DNA from: Pyrodictiaceae archaeon
GTDB taxonomy: Archaea; Thermoproteota; Thermoprotei_A; Sulfolobales; Pyrodictiaceae
NCBI GenBank assembly: GCA_027036135.1
Contig: JALVSY010000030.1
Coordinates: forward strand, 1 to 64,000
DNA: 64,000 bases
Direction: 5' to 3'
Below, piece after piece: positions 36,788 to 52,386 of the stretch. Position 1 is the stretch's first letter. The number at the start of each line of letters is the position of its first letter. The notes under the pieces are model-generated. The model ran no database searches. It saw nothing but the letters and a program-made list of their open reading frames with translations, and was not told where the DNA came from. A program made the translations under genes and the position numbers.

Positions 36788-36912
36788 CCCAGAGAATATT
36801 TGGGAGCGTAATGATAATCTTCCTGTCACATGCCTAGCGTATATAGAGTGTTCTCCGAGTTAGCCTAATCCCGGTAAACACTCCTATACTGTTAAATGGG
36901 TATGCGGTGACC

Positions 36913-38349
36913 ATGCGTGTCCTGCTTAGCCTCCCGCCCGGTATCCACCGGCTAGAGATATACAAGATAACTGGGATGAAGGCGCCTCCGCTCGGCCTAG
37001 CTTATATAGCTGCTGTGCTGGAGCGCAACGGGCACAAAGTAAGGATCATCGATACGCCGACGCTCGAGATGGGGAGAGATACATGGCTCAGTGAGGTTAA
37101 GTCCTGGAAGCCTGATCTAGTCGGGTTATCACTACTGACACCGACTGCGCCAAAGGGATACGAGGCCATCAAACTACTAAAGGAAGAGCTGCTCGACGTA
37201 CCAGTTATTGTTGGCGGTATCCACTCAACATTTATGTTTAACGAGGCCCTCGACCATGGTGCTGATATAGTGGTTAGGGGTGAGGGAGAATACACTACAG
37301 CAGAGCTAGCAGACATCATTGAGCGTTATGGGCTCGATGAGGAGAAGCTCAGAGAAGTAAGGGGGATAGCGTTCCGCTCAAAGAAGAACGGGAGAACAAT
37401 ACTTACCCCTGAGAGGCCGCCGCCCGACCTCGATGAGCTGCCGTGGCCTGCTCGCCACCTCTTACCGATGGAGAAGTACACGTTGTTCAATAAACCGATA
37501 AGGATTATACATATCATGGCTAGTCGTGGCTGCCCCTATGGCTGCATGTACTGCTCAACTAGCTACTTCTTCGGGAGGCGAATAAGGATTCGGAAAGCGC
37601 TCAACGTGGCCGATGAGATAGAGGAGGCTGTCTACAAGTATCGTGCAAAGCACGTCGTATTCGCGGACGACGATATAGGCGTTGGTAGGAGGTTCATGCA
37701 AGAGCTAATAACTGAGCTCAAGAAACGTGGCCTGGACCTAACGTTTGCCTGTGGCTCCCGAGTAGACCACATGACCAAGGAGTATATGAAGTTCCTCTAC
37801 GAGAATGGTTGCAGCGCTCTCTACTTTGGCGTTGAGTCGGCTAACCAGGAGACGCTTAACAAGATAGGCAAAAAGATAACCGTTGAGCAAGTTGAGAGAG
37901 TATTCCGCTGGAAGAAAGAGATAGGAGGATTCGCTACCGCCTCATTCATACTAGGGTTCCCATGGGAGACCATAGATGATATGAAGAAGACAGTGGAGTT
38001 CGCGATAAAGATTGACCCAGACTATGCACAGTTCACCGCACTGACCCCGTATCCCGGTACGCCTCTCTACCAATACGCGAAGAAATACGGGCTCATAGAG
38101 GATACTAACTGGGAGCACTACACTACAGTCCGGGCTGTTATGCGTGGATTCCACTTTACTAGGAAGCAGCTTCAGAGCATGATCAAGTACGCTTATCGTC
38201 GCTTCTACTTGAGGTCTGGATTTATTTGGCGCGAGCTACGAGCCGGGAGGCTCAAGGACCTAATAGGTGTTCTTTCCCGCGAGGCCCTCTCCATGATTAA
38301 GGAGTTTATTGTACACCCCTTACAGTGGAAAGGAGGTGGAAGGAAATGA
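36913..38349 (+). CDS. B12-binding-domain radical SAM protein
   Basis: A 478-residue enzyme. Residues ~1-140 form a cobalamin-binding-like Rossmann domain (GLAYIAAVLERNGHKVRIID, then PDLVGLSLLTPTA and VIVGGIHSTFM). The radical SAM core follows with ASRGCPYGCMYCST (CxxxCxxC near 203-210) and GVESANQETLNKIGKK. It probably performs a C-methylation or other radical reaction on an unknown substrate. ATG at 36913 follows GGTGA. The stop overlaps the ATG of the next radical SAM gene (ATGA), so the two are translationally coupled and likely act in one pathway. Confidence 0.85.
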   Translation: MRVLLSLPPGIHRLEIYKITGMKAPPLGLAYIAAVLERNGHKVRIIDTPTLEMGRDTWLSEVKSWKPDLVGLSLLTPTAPKGYEAIKLLKEELLDVPVIVGGIHSTFMFNEALDHGADIVVRGEGEYTTAELADIIERYGLDEEKLREVRGIAFRSKKNGRTILTPERPPPDLDELPWPARHLLPMEKYTLFNKPIRIIHIMASRGCPYGCMYCSTSYFFGRRIRIRKALNVADEIEEAVYKYRAKHVVFADDDIGVGRRFMQELITELKKRGLDLTFACGSRVDHMTKEYMKFLYENGCSALYFGVESANQETLNKIGKKITVEQVERVFRWKKEIGGFATASFILGFPWETIDDMKKTVEFAIKIDPDYAQFTALTPYPGTPLYQYAKKYGLIEDTNWEHYTTVRAVMRGFHFTRKQLQSMIKYAYRRFYLRSGFIWRELRAGRLKDLIGVLSREALSMIKEFIVHPLQWKGGGRK

Positions 38350-39887
38350 GTAGTCTAGGAGAAGTAGCCTCAGACGAGATAGAGAAGCTACACAAGGAGG
38401 CTAAGCGAGGAGGCATCGGCGCCTACCTCGCCGCCATTAGGATAATGTTCAACAACCCGGTAACTAGGTCCATGCTTAGACTAGCCATCAAGAGGATTAG
38501 GTGTGTCCACCCAGACCGTGGAGAAGTGGACGCTACACTGCTCTATCACGCTCTTACCCAGTTCGCGGGCCAAGAACTATACTCGTGCCCGATAACTGCG
38601 CGCTTCCTCTCCGCAGTGATAAACAAAATAGTTGAGATAGGTATCAGAGCGCTCCACGGAGACCTTGACGAGGCTCGCAAGGCTCTCTCAGACCCAGCTC
38701 TACGCCGCGGCGTCTCCCTAGTCTTCGAGGGCCTAGCACGCTACGGCGTGACTGTTCCACAGAAGATGCCAGCACCCTTCCTCATAGTGTGGAACTTCAC
38801 TAATATGTGTAATCTGCGCTGCAAACACTGTTACCAGAGAGCTGACCACCCATTACCAGACGAGCTGACCCTTGAGGAGAAGCTGAAGCTTGTAGACGAG
38901 CTCGATAAAGCCGGGGTAGCTGCTGTCGCGCTTAGCGGCGGGGAACCAACTATTCATCCCCACTTCTACCACATAGTGCACGAGATGGCTAAGAGAGGGA
39001 TATATGCGGCTGTGGCTACTAATGGATGGATGTTCGCCGACATAGAGAAGCTCGAGAAAGCCGTCAAGCTAGGCCTACGATATGTCGAGGTCTCGGTTGA
39101 TAGCGCTAACCCGAAGAAGCATGACTGGTTCCGCGGCGTGCCAGGCGCGTGGCAGCGAGCAGTAAAGGCTCTCGAGAACGCTGTTAAGCTTGGCGTTAGC
39201 CATGCTATGGCCGTGACTGTTACAAAGGCTAACATAGATGAGGTAGATGATATACTTGACCTCGCGGAGAGCATCGGTGTTGAGAGGGTTGTGTTCTTCA
39301 ACTTCGTCCCAGTTGGGCGCGGCAAGGAGAACATGTGGCTAGACCTAGACCCCTTAGAGAGGGAAGAGTTCCTACGCCACATCTACAAGGAGATGAACAA
39401 GAGGAAGATACAGATAGTCAGTACCGCGCCCCAGTACGGCAGGGTATCTTTACAACTAAGCGGCGGCGAAGACATAGCGCCAACACACTTCTACGTAGGC
39501 GATGACCCCATAGTAAAGGCTGTAGCAGAGTTCGTAGGCGGCTGTGGAGCCGGAAGAATATATGCAGCAATACAGCCGAACGGTGATGTTACTCCATGCG
39601 TCTTCCTACCAATCAAGGTAGGGAACGTCAGGGAGAAAAGCTTTAGAGAGATATGGGAGACCGCCCCTCTCTTCAAGAAGCTACGAGACCGCGAACAACT
39701 AAAGGGCTTCTGCGGCAAGTGCCCATTCAAGTACATATGCGGAGGATGCCGCGCACGGGCCTATGCCTACTTCGGAGACCCCTTGGCACCGGATCCTGGC
39801 TGCATCTATAACCTAAAGGAGTGGAAGAAGCTACAGGAAGAACTTGGAGTAAAAATCAAGGTAGCTGCTCCAGCAAAGGCGGCATAG
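38346..39887 (+). CDS. radical SAM/SPASM protein with N-terminal helical extension
   Basis: About 513 residues. The first ~155 are a helical domain not typical of SPASM enzymes. Then comes the radical SAM motif NMCNLRCKHCYQRA (CxxxCxxC) and the SPASM region with GGCGAG, VTPCVFLP, and FCGKCPFKYICGGCRARAY for auxiliary clusters. ATG at 38346 lies in the stop of the preceding gene with GGAGGTG about eight bases upstream; I prefer it to the GTG-free earlier ATG at 38325. SPASM proteins modify peptides or make cofactors (heme, PQQ, tungsten cofactor). Substrate unknown; no small precursor peptide gene was seen next to it. Confidence 0.85.
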   Translation: MSSLGEVASDEIEKLHKEAKRGGIGAYLAAIRIMFNNPVTRSMLRLAIKRIRCVHPDRGEVDATLLYHALTQFAGQELYSCPITARFLSAVINKIVEIGIRALHGDLDEARKALSDPALRRGVSLVFEGLARYGVTVPQKMPAPFLIVWNFTNMCNLRCKHCYQRADHPLPDELTLEEKLKLVDELDKAGVAAVALSGGEPTIHPHFYHIVHEMAKRGIYAAVATNGWMFADIEKLEKAVKLGLRYVEVSVDSANPKKHDWFRGVPGAWQRAVKALENAVKLGVSHAMAVTVTKANIDEVDDILDLAESIGVERVVFFNFVPVGRGKENMWLDLDPLEREEFLRHIYKEMNKRKIQIVSTAPQYGRVSLQLSGGEDIAPTHFYVGDDPIVKAVAEFVGGCGAGRIYAAIQPNGDVTPCVFLPIKVGNVREKSFREIWETAPLFKKLRDREQLKGFCGKCPFKYICGGCRARAYAYFGDPLAPDPGCIYNLKEWKKLQEELGVKIKVAAPAKAA

Positions 39888-43336: not shown

Positions 43337-44809
43337 ATGAGGAAACAGTTCATTCTCTCCCTTAGCCCTGCAGAGGCTCGGCGTTTACTCGGCTCGCTAC
43401 AAGACATGCTGCGCCGTGTCTCAGTCGTGGACGAGGTCGGAAGCAACTATGTGACGGTAGTGGTTCCTAAGGGTAGGCGTGGCACCGAGAAGGTACGACT
43501 ATTAATGGATATATACGAGACCGAGAACAGTACCGCAGCCATACTCTATAGCGATACCGATATGATGTTCATAGACATTACCGCTACTAGGCAAGGAGTA
43601 CAGACATCTATCACAGTTACTTGTCAAGGCGTAGGCCGGGTAGAGAAAATCATCGATACCCTTGGAAACGAGCTAGCGAATCTCGTGAGAACCCGGCTCG
43701 AGAACGCTTATCCCTCAACAGATATAAACGAAGAGGATAATAAGCTTGCAGCCCTCGAGAAGTCCCCACCGCTACTCACAACGCTTGTCTACTACGATTC
43801 CTTCATCCCTGTATTCAACGTCGTCCTCGAATCTGCTCTAAGGGTTCTATCAGCTCTGGGCCCAGATCACTACCTAGTCGAAGTTGAGAGCCTGGATGAG
43901 CGCGAGCCGTTCACGCTCCGCCTCGTCGTGAGAGAGAACAAGGTTACCGGTCTCTATGCAGAGCTTCCTGGCCAGCGTCTACGCGGGGATAGCGTCCTCT
44001 ATGCTAACTTTCCTCTGGCTAGGAGGGTCAATGTAAAGGCTTGGGCCCTTTACGGCGGCAGGGAGACAGTTGTCTACGCACCACTGGAGTTAACGAGTAG
44101 TGGAGACCACAGAGTATACTGGGTCTCGGTGAAGGGCTGCGCTGCATGCGGCGGATTATTATCTAATGGCTTCATGGTCGTTGATCGGAGAGAAGCCGTT
44201 CTCATCAACCCTGCTGCCCTCGAGGAGAGACACATAATTCACATAGAGGAGCTCTTACAAGGCCTTGATAACCTTAGACACATAGTCTTAACACATGTTG
44301 AGGCAGACCTCATAGCAGGTATCGAGACAATATTGTCCCATAACCCCAGGGTCTATATCCACGCGCCACCTTACCACGCCAGTCTGCTAAACTCAGCAAT
44401 TCGCCAAATAAGTGCCAACATAAAGACGCTGCCACTACGCGAGTCGGAGACCAACACGGGACGAACAAGACTACTAGTACTAGAGGGAGCAGCTAACTCG
44501 CCGCACAACATAGCGCTCTACGACCCAGCGTCAAAGGTGTTATTCGCCGGGGTTACACTGGGCTCTATTACTCCCCCCGGACTATGGGCTCCATTTGTAA
44601 GCGATGTGGAGGAGTACTTGAAGACTGTTGTCCCCTACGTGACGCACCTAGTTAACATCAGCAAACTAAGAGCTTGGACCGAGAGAGTGAGCAAGCTAGA
44701 CGTCGAGATAATAGCTCCTCATTACGGGCCACTGGTTATTGGTAGGGATGAAGTGCGCTCCGTAATTGCTAGGCTAAGAGAACTCGCAGACCTACTAAGC
44801 AGCGCATAG
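43337..44809 (+). CDS. multidomain protein with degenerate metallo-beta-lactamase fold
   Basis: About 490 residues. An N-terminal alpha/beta domain (1-150), a middle part (about 165-255) with HYLVEVESLDEREPFTLRLV and VRENKVTGLYAEL that resembles a PATAN/DUF4388 domain, and a C-terminal MBL-like fold. The last has HIVLTHVEADLIAG where HxHxDH would be expected and IIAPHYGPLVIG at the end. Most metal ligands are missing, so it is likely a non-enzymatic, sensor or scaffold version related to flavodiiron/ODP-like MBL domains. ATG at 43337 with GGGGGAA upstream. It starts a group of regulator-like genes ahead of the hydrogenase. Confidence 0.55.
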   Translation: MRKQFILSLSPAEARRLLGSLQDMLRRVSVVDEVGSNYVTVVVPKGRRGTEKVRLLMDIYETENSTAAILYSDTDMMFIDITATRQGVQTSITVTCQGVGRVEKIIDTLGNELANLVRTRLENAYPSTDINEEDNKLAALEKSPPLLTTLVYYDSFIPVFNVVLESALRVLSALGPDHYLVEVESLDEREPFTLRLVVRENKVTGLYAELPGQRLRGDSVLYANFPLARRVNVKAWALYGGRETVVYAPLELTSSGDHRVYWVSVKGCAACGGLLSNGFMVVDRREAVLINPAALEERHIIHIEELLQGLDNLRHIVLTHVEADLIAGIETILSHNPRVYIHAPPYHASLLNSAIRQISANIKTLPLRESETNTGRTRLLVLEGAANSPHNIALYDPASKVLFAGVTLGSITPPGLWAPFVSDVEEYLKTVVPYVTHLVNISKLRAWTERVSKLDVEIIAPHYGPLVIGRDEVRSVIARLRELADLLSSA

Positions 44810-44829
44810 GCCAAGGAGAGGTGAGCGTG

Positions 44830-45441
44830 ATGGCAGAGGGTGTTCCTCGCTTAGAGTTCAAGGGACTAGGCCCCTTCATACGTTATGGAGATATACAAGC
44901 CGCTCTCAGGAGAAGCAGGAGAGTAACAGTATCGATAGACCTTGATGCAGAGCCCCTCCTAGAGACCTGGGCTCGGAAACACCTCATAAAGGTACAGAAA
45001 ATGAGTGAAGGGATATACCTCCTTGCCTTCGAGGAGGCTAGCCTCGAGAAGCCAGCAGCGAGGCTAGAGATACCGGACTATATTCCCCAGGACCTTGCGA
45101 GGCTAGTGCCCTCGCCTACGATCACTAAGTGGAGGCGTGACCTCTCCGAGAAGCTAGCTGATCCCGCGCAGCTACTAGGTCTCGTCCTCAGAGCGCAGAC
45201 ACTATACCGTGGACCTGCCCGGGGAGAAGAGTTTGAGGACCTTCTTCGCAGAGAGGATCCCGTGCTACTAAAGGCAACCATTGATGGAAACGACGTGGTA
45301 CTGGTTATTAGGCATGGCGACGTAATAGCAGGAGCACGTATAAATAATGCGCTAACAGAGACGGAGGCAAAAGCTATCCTGCAGCGCGTGCTCCGAGAAG
45401 GCCTAAGCGTAACGATATACGATGTAGCCGCGCTCATCTAG
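44830..45441 (+). CDS. hypothetical protein, PATAN/DUF2226-like C-terminus
   Basis: About 203 residues. The C-terminal half (LKATIDGNDVVLVIRHGDVI, AGARINNALTETEAKAILQR) follows the pattern of PATAN/DUF2226-type domains: strand, charged turn, strand with hydrophobic-x-x-G-x-I-x-A, then helices. The N-terminal half (FKGLGPFIRYGDIQAALRR) is unassigned. GGAGAGG lies before either GTG 44821 or ATG 44830. Follows the degenerate MBL gene by about 20 bases, so same transcript. Confidence 0.5.
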   Translation: MAEGVPRLEFKGLGPFIRYGDIQAALRRSRRVTVSIDLDAEPLLETWARKHLIKVQKMSEGIYLLAFEEASLEKPAARLEIPDYIPQDLARLVPSPTITKWRRDLSEKLADPAQLLGLVLRAQTLYRGPARGEEFEDLLRREDPVLLKATIDGNDVVLVIRHGDVIAGARINNALTETEAKAILQRVLREGLSVTIYDVAALI

Positions 45442-46070
45442 GGTAGCTGGAACACTATTTTCTCATAGCCTCCGGTCCTGCCACCCCTCCTACCATATAT
45501 TGCTACGACATTATCGCCGACGATGTCCCAGTCCTCGTTACCGGGGCCCATGTCGACCTCAAGCACCCTGGAGCCCGGCGGAAATATCCAGTAGGCCTCA
45601 TAGTTATACTCTATTGGTTCCTGCTCGTAACGGTTCTCATAGGTGTTCCTCCCGGGCCGGAGAGGGGCGCGGAACCGGAGCCCAAACACTATGAAGACGC
45701 GGTCTCGGCGACCCCTAAACCCTATATCGACCAGGACAACGCGTGGACGGACACGCTCTCCATTAACGAGTACCTCCTCTTTATTAACTAGCTCCTGCAT
45801 ATTGTAGGCGAGAGACGCTGTTTCCTCCTCATAGAGCTTCTCGTCACGCAGCACAGCGTCATAGTACCCCATGGGGTCTATATAGTCAAATACAATATAG
45901 TAGGCAATGTAGCGGTAACCGACATAGAAGAAGCCCTGGGCATGAACCGGGGTTACGGCCTCACCAGCCTCTCTCAAGAAACTCTCTCTAAGCACACGCC
46001 GTGGGCCACGTCGCCCCAAGTCGCTGACACCGCTGAAAAATAATCGAGCCAGCCAAGGATAGCGCTTCAA
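45438..46070 (-). CDS. hypothetical protein
   Basis: A 210-residue soluble protein, Tyr- and Arg-rich, with mostly beta-strand prediction (GFFYVGYRYIAYYIVFDYID, then a final VVAIYGRRGGRTGGYEKIVF). No family recognised. It converges with and overlaps the PATAN-like gene by four bases, and its ATG overlaps the stop of the upstream gene at 46067-46070 (ATGA), so it is translationally coupled to it. Confidence 0.6.
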   Translation of the reverse strand: MKRYPWLARLFFSGVSDLGRRGPRRVLRESFLREAGEAVTPVHAQGFFYVGYRYIAYYIVFDYIDPMGYYDAVLRDEKLYEEETASLAYNMQELVNKEEVLVNGERVRPRVVLVDIGFRGRRDRVFIVFGLRFRAPLRPGRNTYENRYEQEPIEYNYEAYWIFPPGSRVLEVDMGPGNEDWDIVGDNVVAIYGRRGGRTGGYEKIVFQLP

Positions 46071-46789
46071 GGGGCTAAATAGATCTTACAATTCATTGGC
46101 TCCTCGAGTTCCTCGACATGATTGCCATTTACATCGGCTGCTGCACAACCATTACTTGTACAGACAACATTAATGATGCGGTTATGCCGGGTAATGCACC
46201 TAGCATAGGCTACACTATATGACCCGCGGCTCTCGCTAAGTGCCGCTATGACTTTGCTAAGCCTATCACTACTTATCTCTGTGCTTTTCTCAGCATGTAG
46301 AACAATACGTAGCAATGCCGCAACGTCCCGGGCAAGGCTTAGGGCCTCATGGCTGAACCCGATACGGGGCTCCTCGCTAGGCGTACCCTGTGCATGGCTG
46401 GCCTCAATGGCTTGGGACACTGGCTTTTCTCCAAGAAGCTGCTCTACGCTGAGCCCTGGTACACGGGCATTAGGGGCATACTCTAGGTCGACTCGTATCT
46501 TTTCATCATTGAGCTGGATGACTTCAACGTATCCGTTTCTCTCCCCGAGCTTCTCGCGGAGCAGCTTAATGGCCTCTTCTCCCCTTATTATGTTCCCGCT
46601 CGTCTTCTCTTCGGCCATTACCGCTACTATTCTACCCCTTTGAAGCTCGAGTTCTATAGTATAGTTATCAAGGTATATGACTAGTCTTCCACTAAACCCT
46701 CTCGCTGCATAATCCTTTATAATGCTCTGCAAATCCTCTTCGAACAAGTTATGGAATTTTATGGTCTTGCCGCGACTAAGGAACAGCAC
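46067..46789 (-). CDS. PATAN/DUF4388-like domain protein
   Basis: A 240-residue protein. Residues ~10-110 follow the PATAN/DUF4388 pattern: F..LFEEDLQSIIKDYAARGFSG, then RLVIYLDNYTIELELQRGRI and VAVMAEE, with EEAIKLLREKLGERNGYVEV after it. The remainder has a helical stretch and a beta-rich, Cys-containing end. In bacteria and archaea these domains are tied to Roadblock and small-GTPase or two-component regulators; a Roadblock gene is 144 bases upstream in the same direction. The likely role is regulatory, by context. ATG at 46789. Confidence 0.5.
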   Translation of the reverse strand: MLFLSRGKTIKFHNLFEEDLQSIIKDYAARGFSGRLVIYLDNYTIELELQRGRIVAVMAEEKTSGNIIRGEEAIKLLREKLGERNGYVEVIQLNDEKIRVDLEYAPNARVPGLSVEQLLGEKPVSQAIEASHAQGTPSEEPRIGFSHEALSLARDVAALLRIVLHAEKSTEISSDRLSKVIAALSESRGSYSVAYARCITRHNRIINVVCTSNGCAAADVNGNHVEELEEPMNCKIYLAP

Positions 46790-46932
46790 CTCTTTTTCAC
46801 CGACGCACTAGCCCAAGCTAAGCTAATCCACTAGCTAAAGTAAAGAACGTAGAGAAAAATAAACAATATGTCCTAGTCATGGATTAAACAAATGAGATAG
46901 AAAGAAGCACTGAACAAAATAATTATACCTGG

Positions 46933-47292
46933 TTAGAGAGCAGCCTTTATCCGGTCCTTCTGCTTCTTCATCTCATACCTTATTCTGCCAAGGTAAGCCG
47001 TCCTATCAGATATGACCGTAAATACTGCTTCACCAAGGTCTTCTAGGAGTACATAGCTGTTAGCGTACTCTAGGATGACCATATCCATGTCTCCTAGTTT
47101 CAGCTCTGAGCCCATTCTATCAGCTGCACCATAGACAGTGGTTATCATCGCTGCCAACGCGTCGAGGTCTATCTCCAGCCCACCGGGTGTTGAGGCCTCT
47201 ATGACGAAGCCGTCTTTGCTCACGATTATTGCTCCGCGCACACCCTGTATACGTGTAAACTCTGCGACAATTGTTTGGAGCGGGGAGGACAT
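46933..47292 (-). CDS. Roadblock/LC7 domain protein (MglB-like)
   Basis: A 119-residue single-domain Roadblock/LC7 protein: I..EF..IQGVRGAIIVSKDG at the start, DLDALAAMITTVYGAADRMG central helix and YVLLEDLGEAVFTVISDRTA near the end. These dimeric proteins modulate small GTPases or signalling complexes. No Ras-like GTPase gene is in the window. It sits between the V4R-like and PATAN-like genes, all on the minus strand, which suggests one regulatory unit. GTG/ATG alternatives were not needed; ATG at 47292 has GGAGAG-like sequence upstream. Confidence 0.8.
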   Translation of the reverse strand: MSSPLQTIVAEFTRIQGVRGAIIVSKDGFVIEASTPGGLEIDLDALAAMITTVYGAADRMGSELKLGDMDMVILEYANSYVLLEDLGEAVFTVISDRTAYLGRIRYEMKKQKDRIKAAL

Positions 47293-47405
47293 GGCCCTCT
47301 TTCCTCTCTGCTACTCTTCCACAATATGCAAACCCACTTACAAGTATTAAAAATGTCTTAGGCTCTTATATTAGTATTTTAGCCCCATATTTACTAATAT
47401 CGATA

Positions 47406-48015
47406 TTATGAGTGCAGCGGCAATATCTCTTCAACAATTATTGTCAAGGGCTCGCTCTCGCTTCGAGGAAGCAGAGTAGTTACATTAACCCTAGCCCTAG
47501 GATTCCTCTCAAGAAGCATCTTCCTAACAATAGCAGCCACTATCATCGCCTCAGGGCTTAACGGGTACTCACGGAGCCCCCCTCTTTACAAGAACCTTGT
47601 GAACAGGCATAAACATACTATCCTTTATCTCCACCCTGTAGCGGCGAAGCTTCCTACCATGCTTCTCCACGTCTTCAAGCCTCTCAACCCTAACCTCTTT
47701 CGCTATACCAAGCTTCTTGAGAACATCAGCTATTAGCTCATGGGGCTCAGATACATTATAACTTATTTTACCCTCAAGCTCGCCTAGAACCTCAAGTATA
47801 AGGTCACCTATCTCGCCGAGAAGCATCTGCGTCATAGCACCAGCTCCAGCACTACCAAGGGCACGATAAAGAGCCATTTGGTAACCAGCAAGTATAGCAT
47901 AGCCAACCATATCCAATTTCTTCCTATCCCTCCACTCAGTATTCACGCCTTCATACTCAGATATCATTGTTCGGGCCTCCATCCGGACACCCTTTTTATC
48001 TAACTTATTAAACAT
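47406..48015 (-). CDS. V4R-like protein, frameshifted at a G run
   Basis: From 48015 the frame runs to KVLVKRGAP and stops at 47569 at a run of six G. The +1 frame continues LREYPLSPEAMIVAAIVRKM, then ARVNVTTLLPRSESEPLTII, ending at 47406. Removing one G gives about 203 residues with a V4R-like plan: N-terminal helices (GYQMALYRALGSAGAGAMTQ) and a C-terminal half with E-x-P...helix...strand. It lacks the usual Cys. A small-molecule-binding sensor is plausible by fold and by neighbours (Roadblock, PATAN-like). The frameshift may be a homopolymer error. Confidence 0.5.
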
Positions 48016-48327
48016 AGCTAGAACCCCATATAATATCTTTTGATAAATAAATAAGCACCTATATTATTTCCATGACGAGTACCATATATCATATAGGGTA
48101 TAAATCATCTGCGCACTCCATGTACATGAGCATATTCATAGACGGGCTCCCATAGTATAGCAATGCACTAAAAGCAAGCATATTACTAAATCACAAGCTA
48201 CAATGCTTCATGAAATCTTTTCAGGAAATGAAAGTAGTTACAAATAAAGTAATACACCCACCACTCAAACCAAAAGAACAATGTACAAGTGCCTTTCGCT
48301 TTCCTAGCGTCTTCGCAGTAGAATTAG
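48016..48327. other. intergenic, nothing recognised
   Basis: AT-rich gap of about 310 bases between the V4R-like gene and the tRNA-Ile gene. TATA-like stretches occur (48020-48060, 48085-48105), consistent with the V4R-like promoter on the minus strand. No small RNA, repeat or frame is supported. Confidence 0.4.
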
Positions 48328-48402
48328 TGGGCCCGGGGGGATTCGAACCCCCGACCTCCCGGTTATCAGCCGGGCGCTCTAACCGGGCTGAGCTACGGGC
48401 CC
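48328..48402 (-). tRNA. tRNA-Ile (GAT)
   Basis: The minus strand folds into a complete cloverleaf. Acceptor GGGCCCG pairs with CGGGCCC, D arm begins TAGCTCAG, and the anticodon stem CCCGG encloses CTGATAA with anticodon GAT. The T arm reads GGGGGTTCGAATCCCCC, with discriminator A and no CCA encoded. No intron. It is the usual reader of AUC/AUU codons. Confidence 0.95.
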
Positions 48403-48632
48403 GTTCCCAGGTATAGTGGTGTTCTCTCACCATATAAGGGGCTATTTTTATCTTCACTTTCTTCCAGGTAAGATATACAGCCTTACTTCTTCTTGGTTAC
48501 TTTGTTACTTTAAGAAGTATTTGTTAGGAGACTCCATGTTTCGGTGAACCCTAGCTATTTATTTTATTGATTGGATTTAGCAGAAGCTATTTTTGTTATC
48601 TCATATAACTTTTAGTATGAGTGGCGGGGCGA

Positions 48633-49589
48633 ATGGAGACTTCCTTGCTTCTTGAGGCTAGGCAGAGTGCTGTGAGCGATATAGAAGTTTATTCAAAGCT
48701 TATCGCTATGACTGTTGTTGGTGTAGAGGAGGCCATAGGTAGTAACATGGTTGGTGGCTTCGTGAACCTGGTAGCGCGCAAGCTTGAAGAAGAGCTAGGA
48801 GTGCAACGTGGGAGCAATGTCCGCGAACTACTTGAATGGATTAATAAAAATACGGTACTTAGGCTCAATACTTATCGTGTTAAGGACCAACTTGTGCGCG
48901 ACGAGGAGAAGGGGCCTGCTTTCTATATGATTGCCTATGAGTGTCCAGTACGCCAGATACTTTACTTAGAGGATCTGCCTGGTGGCAGGGCACTATGTAT
49001 GATTATATGTCGTTTCCTTAGCAGATTGCTGTCGGGTGGTCTTGGCTCTAGTTGCAGGGTTGAACCAGCTCGGATTGGGCCTAATGCATGTCTTCTCCGA
49101 GTCGGTATTAGCAACTCTGTTAGGGAGAGGGTTAAGGAGCTTGATGTTACCTCTAGGAGCCCTGATATTAAGGAGTATGAGGAGTTATTGAGAAGGTTCT
49201 TCTCGGCTCTTCTCCGTAGCATAGGCTGGGCGCTTAATACGCTACTTGGTGGGAACCCTGCTATGAGTTACAGAGCAGGGAAGAGCTACGGAAGGCTTGT
49301 TGGAGCCTCTATTCTTGCACAGGGTTATGAGGCTAGTTCCCTAGATGAGGCGGTCAACATATTTAATTCTTCTATGAAAAGCTTGATAAGCATACGTATA
49401 AGTGGCTCCGCGATAGTTATCGAGAAGAGCTGGTTCGATGAAATAATTGAAAAGGAGGCAATAAATCACTCAGAGTTCATTAAAAGAGTTGTCCAAGGCT
49501 TTATCGCAGGCTCTCTCGAGACGCTACTTGCAAAACGAGTTGATCTACGCTCCCTAGGTGATAACAAGTTCGAGGTGATAATACGGTGA
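48633..49589 (+). CDS. tandem V4R-like domain protein coupled to hydrogenase
   Basis: About 318 residues with two related halves. The first ends AYECPVRQILYLEDLPGGRA, then LCMIICRFLSRLL and GPNACLLRVGI. The second ends INHSEFIKRVVQGFIAGSLE then NKFEVIIR. Both follow the V4R plan of acidic/Cys-Pro strand, G-F-x-x-G helix and a final C/x-F-x-I strand. V4R domains bind small hydrocarbons or metals and act as sensors or chaperones. The stop overlaps the GTG of the hydrogenase small subunit (GTGA), so it is co-translated and may assist or regulate the enzyme. ATG at 48633 was chosen; GTG at 48621 is possible. Confidence 0.5.
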   Translation: METSLLLEARQSAVSDIEVYSKLIAMTVVGVEEAIGSNMVGGFVNLVARKLEEELGVQRGSNVRELLEWINKNTVLRLNTYRVKDQLVRDEEKGPAFYMIAYECPVRQILYLEDLPGGRALCMIICRFLSRLLSGGLGSSCRVEPARIGPNACLLRVGISNSVRERVKELDVTSRSPDIKEYEELLRRFFSALLRSIGWALNTLLGGNPAMSYRAGKSYGRLVGASILAQGYEASSLDEAVNIFNSSMKSLISIRISGSAIVIEKSWFDEIIEKEAINHSEFIKRVVQGFIAGSLETLLAKRVDLRSLGDNKFEVIIR

Positions 49590-50590
49590 GCAAGCTTAGT
49601 TTCGCCTTTGTCCCTCTAAGCGGCTGTGGCGGGTGCGAGGTACAAGTTCTTCGCGCCTTCACCCTTCACCCGGAGCTAGAAGAACTCTACGATATAGTTT
49701 ATTGGCCCATGGTTGTTGAGACCACCGAGATCCCGGAGAAAGTTGACGTCGTGATGGTGGAGGGACTCGTCAGGACCAAGGAGAACCTCGAGAAGCTGCG
49801 AAAAGCGCGCTTCGCTGCCTCAAAACTAATAGTTGTTGGAAGCTGCGCTTCTTGGAGCGGTATCGGTGGCGCCGCCGACGCGCTCAGCGCGAGGCTCAGC
49901 ATGAAGGCGATATATGGGAGAGAACAGATAAATGAAGATGAGGCGCCCGAGATCCTGCCAAGAGTATTTGCTCCCTCGGACCTAGTTCCCGTCGACTACA
50001 TTATCTCCAGGTGCCCTCCACCCGTAGAGCATATAGTGATAACTCTCAAGGCCGTCGCAAAGGGCAAACCAGTACCCACGGCAACTAGCACTGTTTGCAG
50101 CCAGTGTCCGCGGAAGATGAAACCCATAGAGAAGCTCGAATTCAAGCCCGGGCTTCCGGGCCCCGATGCCGACCCAGAGACTTGTTTCCTTAGCCAGGGC
50201 TATCTCTGCCTAGGCTCTGTTACAACTGTTGGATGCGGTGCACCATGTCCACGCTTCGGTATACCATGTTTTGGCTGCGGTGGCCCACACTACGAGATTG
50301 CAGAGAGAAGAGATATGGATATCATTACCGCTCTTGCAAGGAAGATAGCGACATTGGCTGGGCTTGATCCAGTTAAGGATCTAGACATAGTGATTAAGAA
50401 GCTCCTAGAAGCGTACGATCCCAGGCGCTTCTATGTATTCACGCTGGGCTCTGAAGTGCTTAGGAGAAAGCCGCAAGGATACGCTGTACAAGCCATAGCA
50501 AGAAGCAAGCAGGATCCCAAGTACCGTAAGCTACTTGAGGAGAGGGCCAAGTTTGTTACCGAACAAAGTATTAACAGAAATGAGGAATAA
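49586..50590 (+). CDS. [NiFe] hydrogenase small subunit (cytosolic, MvhG/group 3-like)
   Basis: A 334-residue small subunit with three FeS clusters. The proximal cluster motif is PLSGCGGCEVQ (Cys14, Cys17), with SCASWSGIGGAA and PRCPP-like SRCPPPVEH later. Cysteine-rich TSTVCSQCPRKMKP and GCGAPCPRFGIPCFGCGG supply the medial and distal clusters. There is no twin-arginine signal, so it is cytoplasmic. The pattern is nearest to F420-non-reducing (Mvh-like) small subunits. It carries electrons between the Ni-Fe site and the ferredoxin at 52132. GTG at 49586 overlaps the V4R-like gene. Confidence 0.88.
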   Translation: MSKLSFAFVPLSGCGGCEVQVLRAFTLHPELEELYDIVYWPMVVETTEIPEKVDVVMVEGLVRTKENLEKLRKARFAASKLIVVGSCASWSGIGGAADALSARLSMKAIYGREQINEDEAPEILPRVFAPSDLVPVDYIISRCPPPVEHIVITLKAVAKGKPVPTATSTVCSQCPRKMKPIEKLEFKPGLPGPDADPETCFLSQGYLCLGSVTTVGCGAPCPRFGIPCFGCGGPHYEIAERRDMDIITALARKIATLAGLDPVKDLDIVIKKLLEAYDPRRFYVFTLGSEVLRRKPQGYAVQAIARSKQDPKYRKLLEERAKFVTEQSINRNEE

Positions 50591-50670
50591 GGCTTTGTTT
50601 ACTTCTTTTTCTTCTTTTAGCGCACACATATACGCGGCTTAGCATGGCCACTATTTAAGGGGGATGTGTA

Positions 50671-52128
50671 GTGGAGGAGAATAAGAACCTCGTAAAGGAA
50701 CATAGACGGCTACGCAGGGTCTTAATGACCCTTATCGAGGGCCACGCCTATGTTGTATTCAAGACGAATAAGGGTGTTGTTGAGGATGTCCTCTTCCAAG
50801 GCGTTGATACACGTATGTTCGAGACCATGTGGATAGGCATGCTGATCGATGAATTGCCACGAGTAACTCCAATGATTTGTGGTGTTTGTAGTGCAACTCA
50901 TCACGTGGCTAGCGTTAAGGCTGTTGACCAGGTAAAGGCTGTTGAGCCCCCGGAGGACGCTAAGCGGATAAGGTATATGATAAACTATGGTATTCACTTG
51001 AATAACCAGGCACTTCACCCGCTTGTATTCGGGCTGCCTGACTTCCTCCCCGCTGATATCGACAAAAGGAGTGTTCTCCAGCTGGCACGAGTCAGCCCCG
51101 AGCTCGTAAAGGCTGGAATGAGAATAGTTGAGCTCGGGTTCAAGATAGTTGAGGTCTTTGGGGGCAGGGATATTCATCCAATAAACGGCATCGCTGGCGG
51201 CGTAACAAGGAAACCAAGCAGCAGTGATATTGATAGGATTAAGAGCCTTGTAGAGAAGCACCGCGGAGACCTAAGGATATTCGTAGACGGAGCGATAAAG
51301 ATGATGGAGGAGGCTAAGGCTAAGATAGAGACTTATAAGCCGGGCTACTCCTATATGATGGCTATAGCTGGGCCGAATAACTCCTATAACATAGTTGATG
51401 GGAGGGTTAAGATAATAGACGCGAAGACAGGGGCCGAGGTAGCAGAGTTCTCTGATAGGAGCACAGAGTATCTCGAGCATATCCAGGAATACACGGTCCC
51501 GTATAGCTATATCCGAATGGTTACAACGAAGTGGAGAGCAAACGCTCCTAAGACAGGGGCTATCAACGTGGGTGCACTAGCTCGTGCTAACATAGTAAAA
51601 AGCTATGGCTCAGAGACAGCTGATGAACTTAGAGACAAGGCGTTCGAGGAATGGGGTAAGCCGTTAACACATCCATTAATGGCCACGTACATGAGGCTTG
51701 TAGAGACTGTTGCACTCTATGACATAATTAGCGAGGAGCTCAAGAAGCCGCTAGGCGATAAGCTACGCAATGAGCCGCAGAGGGAAACCGGCGAGGAAGT
51801 AGGTATAATAGAGGCGCCACGCGGAACACTAATCCATCACTACCGGGCCGAGAATACTAAAACCACGTTTATAAATATAATAACTCCTACTGCGATAAAT
51901 GCTGCCGCAATAGAAGCTGATCTAGGACAGTTCTTCAAGGATAAAAACATAGATTCTATGAGTGATAAAGAACTATACATGCATGCTGTATCAATCGTAA
52001 GAAGCTATGATCCATGCATGGCATGCGCAACACACGCTATGGATCCATCCCTGCGCTCATCGATCGCCATAGTGATAGCCGATAATAACTGGAAGCCGAA
52101 GAGGATAATTAAACCAGGAGGTGCTTAG
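50671..52128 (+). CDS. [NiFe] hydrogenase large subunit
   Basis: A 485-residue large subunit. The L1 motif RVTPMICGVCSATHH gives Cys70 and Cys73; the L2 motif DPCMACATH gives Cys449 and Cys452 near the C-terminus. These four cysteines bind the Ni-Fe(CN)2CO centre. About 30 residues follow His455, which a maturation endopeptidase would remove after nickel insertion. No peptidase or hyp gene is present in the window. GTG at 50671 with GGGGGA upstream. It forms an operon with the small subunit and the ferredoxin. Confidence 0.92.
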   Translation: MEENKNLVKEHRRLRRVLMTLIEGHAYVVFKTNKGVVEDVLFQGVDTRMFETMWIGMLIDELPRVTPMICGVCSATHHVASVKAVDQVKAVEPPEDAKRIRYMINYGIHLNNQALHPLVFGLPDFLPADIDKRSVLQLARVSPELVKAGMRIVELGFKIVEVFGGRDIHPINGIAGGVTRKPSSSDIDRIKSLVEKHRGDLRIFVDGAIKMMEEAKAKIETYKPGYSYMMAIAGPNNSYNIVDGRVKIIDAKTGAEVAEFSDRSTEYLEHIQEYTVPYSYIRMVTTKWRANAPKTGAINVGALARANIVKSYGSETADELRDKAFEEWGKPLTHPLMATYMRLVETVALYDIISEELKKPLGDKLRNEPQRETGEEVGIIEAPRGTLIHHYRAENTKTTFINIITPTAINAAAIEADLGQFFKDKNIDSMSDKELYMHAVSIVRSYDPCMACATHAMDPSLRSSIAIVIADNNWKPKRIIKPGGA

Positions 52129-52131
52129 CCT

Positions 52132-52386
52132 ATGGTTAAGATAAGGATAGACCTTGATAAATGTAAGCAGTGTCTCAACTGTGTAAGGGCATGTACAGCA
52201 TTTGATGGCGTCTACGATGAAGGACCCGACGGATACCCGGTGGTGGCGAGACCCGAGGAATGCGTCCAATGTCTTATATGCCATACGGTATGCCCAACAA
52301 ATGCAATAATTCATGAGGATTATAGAGAGACTGTTATAATTAATCCAGACAAGGTTATAGTTGAGCGCTACCGGAATATGATATAG
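52132..52386 (+). CDS. 2[4Fe-4S] ferredoxin, hydrogenase-linked
   Basis: An 84-residue ferredoxin with two clusters: CKQCLNCVRAC (Cys11, 14, 17, 21) and CVQCLICHTVC (Cys44, 47, 50, 54), each followed by Pro or a hydrophobic turn. It starts four bases after the large subunit stop. As the third gene of the hydrogenase operon it is probably the electron acceptor/donor subunit. The C-terminus (KVIVERYRNMI) is slightly extended. Confidence 0.9.
   Translation: MVKIRIDLDKCKQCLNCVRACTAFDGVYDEGPDGYPVVARPEECVQCLICHTVCPTNAIIHEDYRETVIINPDKVIVERYRNMI

Follow-up and report, generated by a model that had tools for sequence, protein, structure and literature searches.

Group 3c [NiFe] hydrogenases are known partners of the Hdr electron-bifurcation complex, to which they are connected via MvhD. 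For the V4R domain, which is homologous to Bet3 (PMC2253512), published work has described cysteines that act as a redox switch in the methanogen regulator MsvR (PMC3729527) and zinc bound at V4R and TRAPPC3 sites, with cysteine-type zinc sites in PoxR and Thor-TRAPPC3 (PMC10933270). Here we examine a stretch of 64,000 nucleotides (the window; positions 1 to 64,000 of the forward strand of contig JALVSY010000030.1, assembly GCA_027036135.1) from a Pyrodictiaceae archaeon, whose genome is 2.2 Mb in 40 contigs and 99.6% complete. In it, a gene for a tandem-V4R protein, V4R2, stands directly before the genes for the small (HydS) and large (HydL) subunits of a hydrogenase and for a ferredoxin. A preliminary description had regarded this hydrogenase operon as joined to a whole set of Roadblock, PATAN-like, V4R-like and MBL-fold genes. 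Our findings highlight instead a V4R-hydrogenase cassette that is real and conserved, next to a separate Roadblock/ODP/DUF2226 signalling cluster at 43337-48015 (module B) that is usually unlinked to the hydrogenase. As far as the open-licence literature that we searched shows, the cassette is undescribed, and no paper on a V4R-hydrogenase link was found there.

V4R2 is present in 13 of 147 genomes of the order, in 14 copies, and in every one of the 14 the HydS gene lies directly downstream on the same strand, at a spacing of -8 to +21 nucleotides. In the window the two genes share a four-nucleotide overlap, GTGA, just as the preliminary description had noted. The cassette runs V4R2, HydS, HydL, ferredoxin; in two genomes (G038 and G055) HydL and the ferredoxin gene are on the opposite strand, with V4R2 and HydS still paired. 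After HydL comes a 2[4Fe-4S] ferredoxin in all copies but one (13 of 14), and the fourteenth, in G134, is an unfair test because an intact HydL open reading frame was not found on that contig either. With a HydS profile these 13 genomes come out close together (E ≤ 1e-77) and are set apart from the rest by a drop from 1e-77 to 1e-58, and the HydS clade is confined to genomes that carry V4R2. Adjacency, shared direction and tight spacing in all 14 copies, together with this confinement, strongly support the tie between V4R protein and hydrogenase that had been suspected from the overlap. Between copies, the pairwise identities of the three proteins V4R2, HydS and HydL rise and fall together (r 0.92-0.94), which fits the expectation for a co-inherited cassette. 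A search with the V4R2 alignment through 229 genomes of the class recovered these full-length copies and, beyond them, matches that were short and partial; 398 genomes drawn from the phylum yielded only short partial matches outside the order. A scan of public genome contigs for V4R2 returned eight loci, all in metagenome-assembled genomes (MAGs) of Desulfurococcales type and all copies of loci already counted; the named relatives of the gene belong to Pyrodictiaceae and Desulfurococcales MAGs. One MAG, G082, holds both a typical and a divergent cassette (loci L050 and L054), and in G028 the hydrogenase adjoins TatA/TatC.

By their best matches, HydS and HydL are most likely the subunits of a cytoplasmic, MvhAG-type [NiFe] hydrogenase derived from group 3c. 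The closest solved structures are MvhG and MvhA (PDB 5odc, chains E and F; 7e-46 and 1.7e-68), and the best NCBIfam matches are VhuG and VhuA, yet under the equivalog cut-offs. These profile and structure matches bear out the hydrogenase subunits and adjoining ferredoxin of the preliminary description, whose open reading frames and coordinates also proved correct. The four cysteines of the NiFe site in HydL and the 12 cysteines of HydS are kept in all eight copies aligned. HydL carries the motif DPCMACATH and shows both ligand motifs by which group 3c is recognized, CGxC at L1 and DPCxxC at L2; of the link to HdrA through MvhD or FlpD that also defines the group there is no sign, MvhD not being adjacent in the cassette copies examined. 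The HydL of the window has a C-terminal extension, a cleavable feature that H2-sensing hydrogenases do without, and the HydL copies G082b and G092 have none.

The proposal that the gene at 48633 encodes a V4R protein holds by way of its homologues and its predicted structure, and not by its own sequence, for which Pfam returned no match. Pfam V4R matches occur in 11 of 13 homologues, spread over both halves of the protein, the best at 3.2e-6. The predicted structure, with a local distance difference test score (pLDDT) of 88.8 and a template-modelling score (pTM) of 0.88, has two helical/beta halves, and its plausible Foldseek matches in the PDB are the V4R sensor domains of PoxR, MopR and DmpR and also human TPC6. 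Match probability reaches 1.00 (PoxR, 5frz, 157 columns) at E-values of 0.04-0.2; with E-values of 0.04 or worse, the predicted fold is called on match probability and on its agreement with the sequence profile. A profile search of V4R2 against PDB sequences and a search of a viral fold library gave no useful match, and no DNA-binding or output domain was found in the protein by Pfam, predicted structure or NCBIfam. Four residues of the first V4R domain, C104, E113, C122 and C153, are invariant in 13 aligned V4R2 sequences.

What V4R2 may do is suggested by the place that its gene occupies. The next-closest hydrogenases in the order have the gene order HdrA-MvhD-small-large, with MvhD verified by Pfam in three such loci and HdrA by NCBIfam in one, and in the V4R2 clade the slot before HydS is taken by V4R2, where relatives outside the clade have MvhD. 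MvhD (PF02662) was absent from ten of ten Pyrodictiaceae carriers, this genome included, in a search that was positive for control methanogens. Built on gene order, co-occurrence, the absence of MvhD from these ten carriers, conserved ligands and a modelled V4R fold, our preferred reading, to which we give an even chance, is that of an MvhD-less hydrogenase with V4R2 as its regulatory subunit and a ferredoxin of its own, next to a separate module B. HydL and HydS would split or make H2, with HydS relaying the electrons along its three Fe-S clusters to the ferredoxin of the cassette. V4R2 would bind HydS at the docking site of MvhD; its first V4R domain, through C104, E113, C122 and C153, could sense a metal, a redox state or a small molecule; and as regulatory subunit it would gate assembly or electron flow. 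The MvhD/HdrA electron-bifurcation partner would have been lost from this hydrogenase, and module B would be functionally independent of it.

Several points weigh against this reading. V4R2 and its homologues remain under the Pfam gathering score, all 11 matches included (27.6 bits for the best homologue versus 31), and Foldseek matched the model at weak E-values. As a possible metal site, the four invariant residues are a candidate put forward on their conservation. The search for MvhD covered ten of the 13 carriers, those in Pyrodictiaceae. Translational coupling of V4R2 to HydS also fits a chaperone or a regulator. Finally, Roadblock and DUF2226-like genes continue the row of cassette genes in G092, which speaks against full independence of module B.

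As an assembly chaperone, V4R2 would be made just before HydS and would hold it, for instance while its Fe-S clusters are put in or while it docks to HydL, without staying in the mature enzyme. The tight coupling of V4R2 to the HydS gene, even in the two genomes with HydL on the other strand, suits this role, and the invariant cysteines could pass on metal or clusters; however, the MvhG/MvhA relatives in the same order manage without V4R2, and the fact that we know of no hydrogenase chaperone with a V4R fold also counts against it. We consider a chaperone rather unlikely. A version in which V4R2 replaces HypB, which has been reported missing from P. delaneyi (PMC5556600), was rejected as a general explanation because hypB is found in five V4R2 carriers, this genome among them, and in non-carriers. 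Alternatively, V4R2 might be a soluble, MsvR-like regulator or ligand sensor that is merely co-transcribed with the hydrogenase and does not bind it. V4R is mainly known as a sensor domain, as in the PoxR and MopR matches, and MsvR, a V4R redox regulator, is weakly matched by two V4R2 homologues. A free regulator would nevertheless need neither the strict order nor the coupling with HydS seen in every copy, and no DNA-binding or output domain was found in V4R2. We consider this role improbable.

The widest alternative, and the one closest to the preliminary description, takes the hydrogenase and the whole Roadblock/DUF2226/ODP set as a single system for sensing H2 or redox state. Module B does adjoin the cassette in the window; the preliminary description nevertheless overlooked that the genes lie on both strands, with transcription diverging and a tRNA-Ile gene standing between module B and the cassette (Table 1). 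In G069, of the same genus, the Roadblock cluster occurs without the hydrogenase: the genes for Roadblock, 47406, tRNA-Ile and fumarase follow one another in that order, no cassette stands between the last two, and the empty site is backed by aligned flanks. In three Pyrodictium-like genomes and G018 the Roadblock and DUF2226-like genes are away from the hydrogenase, as is the ODP gene where present; in the Pyrodictium-like genomes the ODP gene with its 44830 partner, the DUF2226-like gene and 45438 are near one another and far from the hydrogenase. The empty site and the unlinked relatives thus indicate that the juxtaposition of cassette and module B in the window arose recently or is labile. 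Roadblock pairs are, moreover, common in families without this hydrogenase. Support for one system comes from G092, a genome of another family that is 79% complete, where a one-strand run holds V4R2, HydS, HydL, ferredoxin, Roadblock (56% identical), a zinc-ribbon/transmembrane protein and a DUF2226-like gene. Synteny is therefore not missing from every relative, although all other judgeable carriers with both parts have them unlinked, so that joining of the whole set is not a rule. The window and G092 make two linkages among 11 genomes with both parts, for which we put the rough chance at 0.001-0.007, estimated after seeing the data. A functional link or crosstalk between cassette and module B is thus conceivable; a single system we nonetheless regard as distinctly improbable. 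Insertion of a mobile element at the tRNA was also considered and rejected, since the two flanks examined share no direct or inverted repeat of at least 10 nucleotides and the cassette lies on the 5' side of the tRNA.

G092 is exceptional also in its enzyme. Its HydL (L057:3831-4979) alone among the copies lacks the glutamate of EGH and the arginine of EAPRG, with the four cysteine ligands kept. Divergent V4R-hydrogenases such as this one, and perhaps G082b, might serve archaea as sensors of H2 or redox state: a hydrogenase of reduced catalytic ability would signal, with tandem V4R as the adaptor, to a Roadblock/DUF2226 module anchored in the membrane, and the window would hold a catalytic cousin beside the same kind of signalling genes; we think this quite unlikely.

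Table 1. Genes of module B and of the V4R-hydrogenase cassette in the window.
Feature	Position	Strand	Remarks
ODP-family MBL-fold protein	43337..44809	+	N-terminal ~250 amino acids without domain assignment
203-amino-acid partner of ODP gene	44830..45441	+	no domain match
Conserved 210-amino-acid protein	45438..46070	-	no domain assignment; neighbour of 46067 in Pyrodictium-like genomes
DUF2226/PATAN-like protein (weak)	46067..46789	-	recurrent neighbour of Roadblock or 45438
Roadblock/LC7 protein, 119 amino acids	46933..47292	-	
Roadblock-partner gene	47406..48015	-	frameshifted
tRNA-Ile (GAT)	48327..48402	-	between module B and cassette
V4R2, tandem-V4R protein, 318 amino acids	48633..49589	+	alternative GTG start at 48621
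HydS, MvhG/VhuG-like small subunit	49586..50590	+	12 conserved Cys
HydL, MvhA/VhuA-like large subunit	50671..52128	+	NiFe ligands C70, C73, C449, C452 intact
2[4Fe-4S] ferredoxin	52132..52386	+	

The domain assignments within module B fared unevenly. Roadblock/LC7 at 46933 is certain enough (Pfam Robl_LC7 3.6e-16, 59.1 bits against a gathering score of 23). PATAN/DUF4388-like segments had been proposed for three proteins, and a trace of them survives in one: 46067 matches DUF2226 and PATAN at 6.6e-4 and 0.11, both under the cut-off (19.7 versus 22 bits), and neither the N-terminus of 43337 nor 44830 gave a Pfam match to PATAN or an hhalign probability reaching 4%, with shallow profiles (Neff 2-4). 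The reading of 47406 as V4R-like likewise found no support, neither the gene nor its homologues having a Pfam V4R match and hhalign giving 0.5% against the V4R2 family with equally shallow profiles; indeed, 44830, 45438 and 47406 have no meaningful Pfam match of any kind. For 43337, described as an MBL-fold protein without its metal ligands, the fold stands and the loss of ligands is partial. Its C-terminal half belongs to the ODP family (Pfam 1.6e-18; Foldseek to T. maritima ODP 5e-16), and of the di-metal ligands HxExDH...H...D...H it has H, E, D, L, H, V, H, that is, five of seven kept; its paralogues keep fewer, up to the loss of all. A single surplus G in a G run near 47590 disrupts the 47406 gene, either as a sequencing error or as the mark of a recent pseudogene, and the copy in G069 is intact at 201 amino acids.

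The partner of Roadblock in the order is either a member of the 47406 family (in families f2, f6 and f9 and in this genus) or a DUF2226-like gene, and a zinc-ribbon/membrane protein is close to the pair in several loci read. The pair of Roadblock and 47406-family gene is kept across three other families of the order (L127, L129, L131-L136, L138), and in the loci read there a zinc-ribbon/transmembrane protein with a possible Roadblock-like N-terminus comes next. The 45438-46070 protein is 74-82% identical across Pyrodictiaceae, a conservation unusual for this neighbourhood. This genome has a second pair of ODP and 44830 genes, which adjoins VWA, PP2C-like and zinc-ribbon genes: at L060:4054-10719 (contig C7) there follow one another a zinc-ribbon protein, a ~350-amino-acid protein, a VWA protein, a ~255-amino-acid protein, a PP2C-like phosphatase, a 44830-like and an ODP-like gene. 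Other Pyrodictiaceae loci (L059, L061-L064, L073) resemble L060 in gene sizes and order, domains having been checked in L060 and the zinc ribbon also in L059. Elsewhere in the window, two adjacent radical SAM genes (36907-39887; one B12-binding, one SPASM) are kept beside an MBL gene in the same genus.

If our preferred reading is true, an MvhD-less clade with an obligate V4R partner would represent a different wiring or control of a group 3c-type enzyme, found in archaea that draw on H2 and grow close to life's upper temperature limit. The reported proteome of P. delaneyi includes a hydrogenase of this type (PMC8105010); we infer that it comes from the same operon, and the cassette names a partner for it. 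It also suggests what role to seek for an archaeal V4R protein that is akin in fold to eukaryotic TRAPP/Bet3.

Set against described systems, the cassette is closest to MvhAGD-HdrABC of methanogens (group 3c; PDB 5odc), which it resembles in the kinship of HydS and HydL to MvhG and MvhA, the small-then-large order and the kept Fe-S ligands of HydS, and from which it differs in having neither MvhD nor an adjacent HdrA, V4R2 in the place of MvhD and a short ferredoxin after HydL. With MsvR, V4R2 shares an archaeal V4R domain with three conserved cysteines (NCBIfam 0.08, weak, in two homologues), whereas PMC3729527 describes MsvR with a DNA-binding domain and without any tie to a hydrogenase, and V4R2 has two V4R halves and a shifted cysteine set. 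The phenol sensors PoxR, MopR and DmpR and TRAPPC3/Bet3 are plausible structural matches of the V4R2 model, although identity to them is low (7-14%) and V4R2 has no AAA+ domain. In module B, the C-terminal half of 43337 is like ODP, the oxygen-binding di-iron chemotaxis sensor of Thermotoga and Treponema, but with two of the seven ligands lost, an extra N-terminal region and no chemotaxis genes noticed nearby. The Roadblock protein is, like MglB and the Asgard Roadblock proteins, a compact domain of this family, yet no small GTPase gene was noticed beside it, and its recurrent partners are instead the 47406 family, DUF2226-like and zinc-ribbon/transmembrane proteins.

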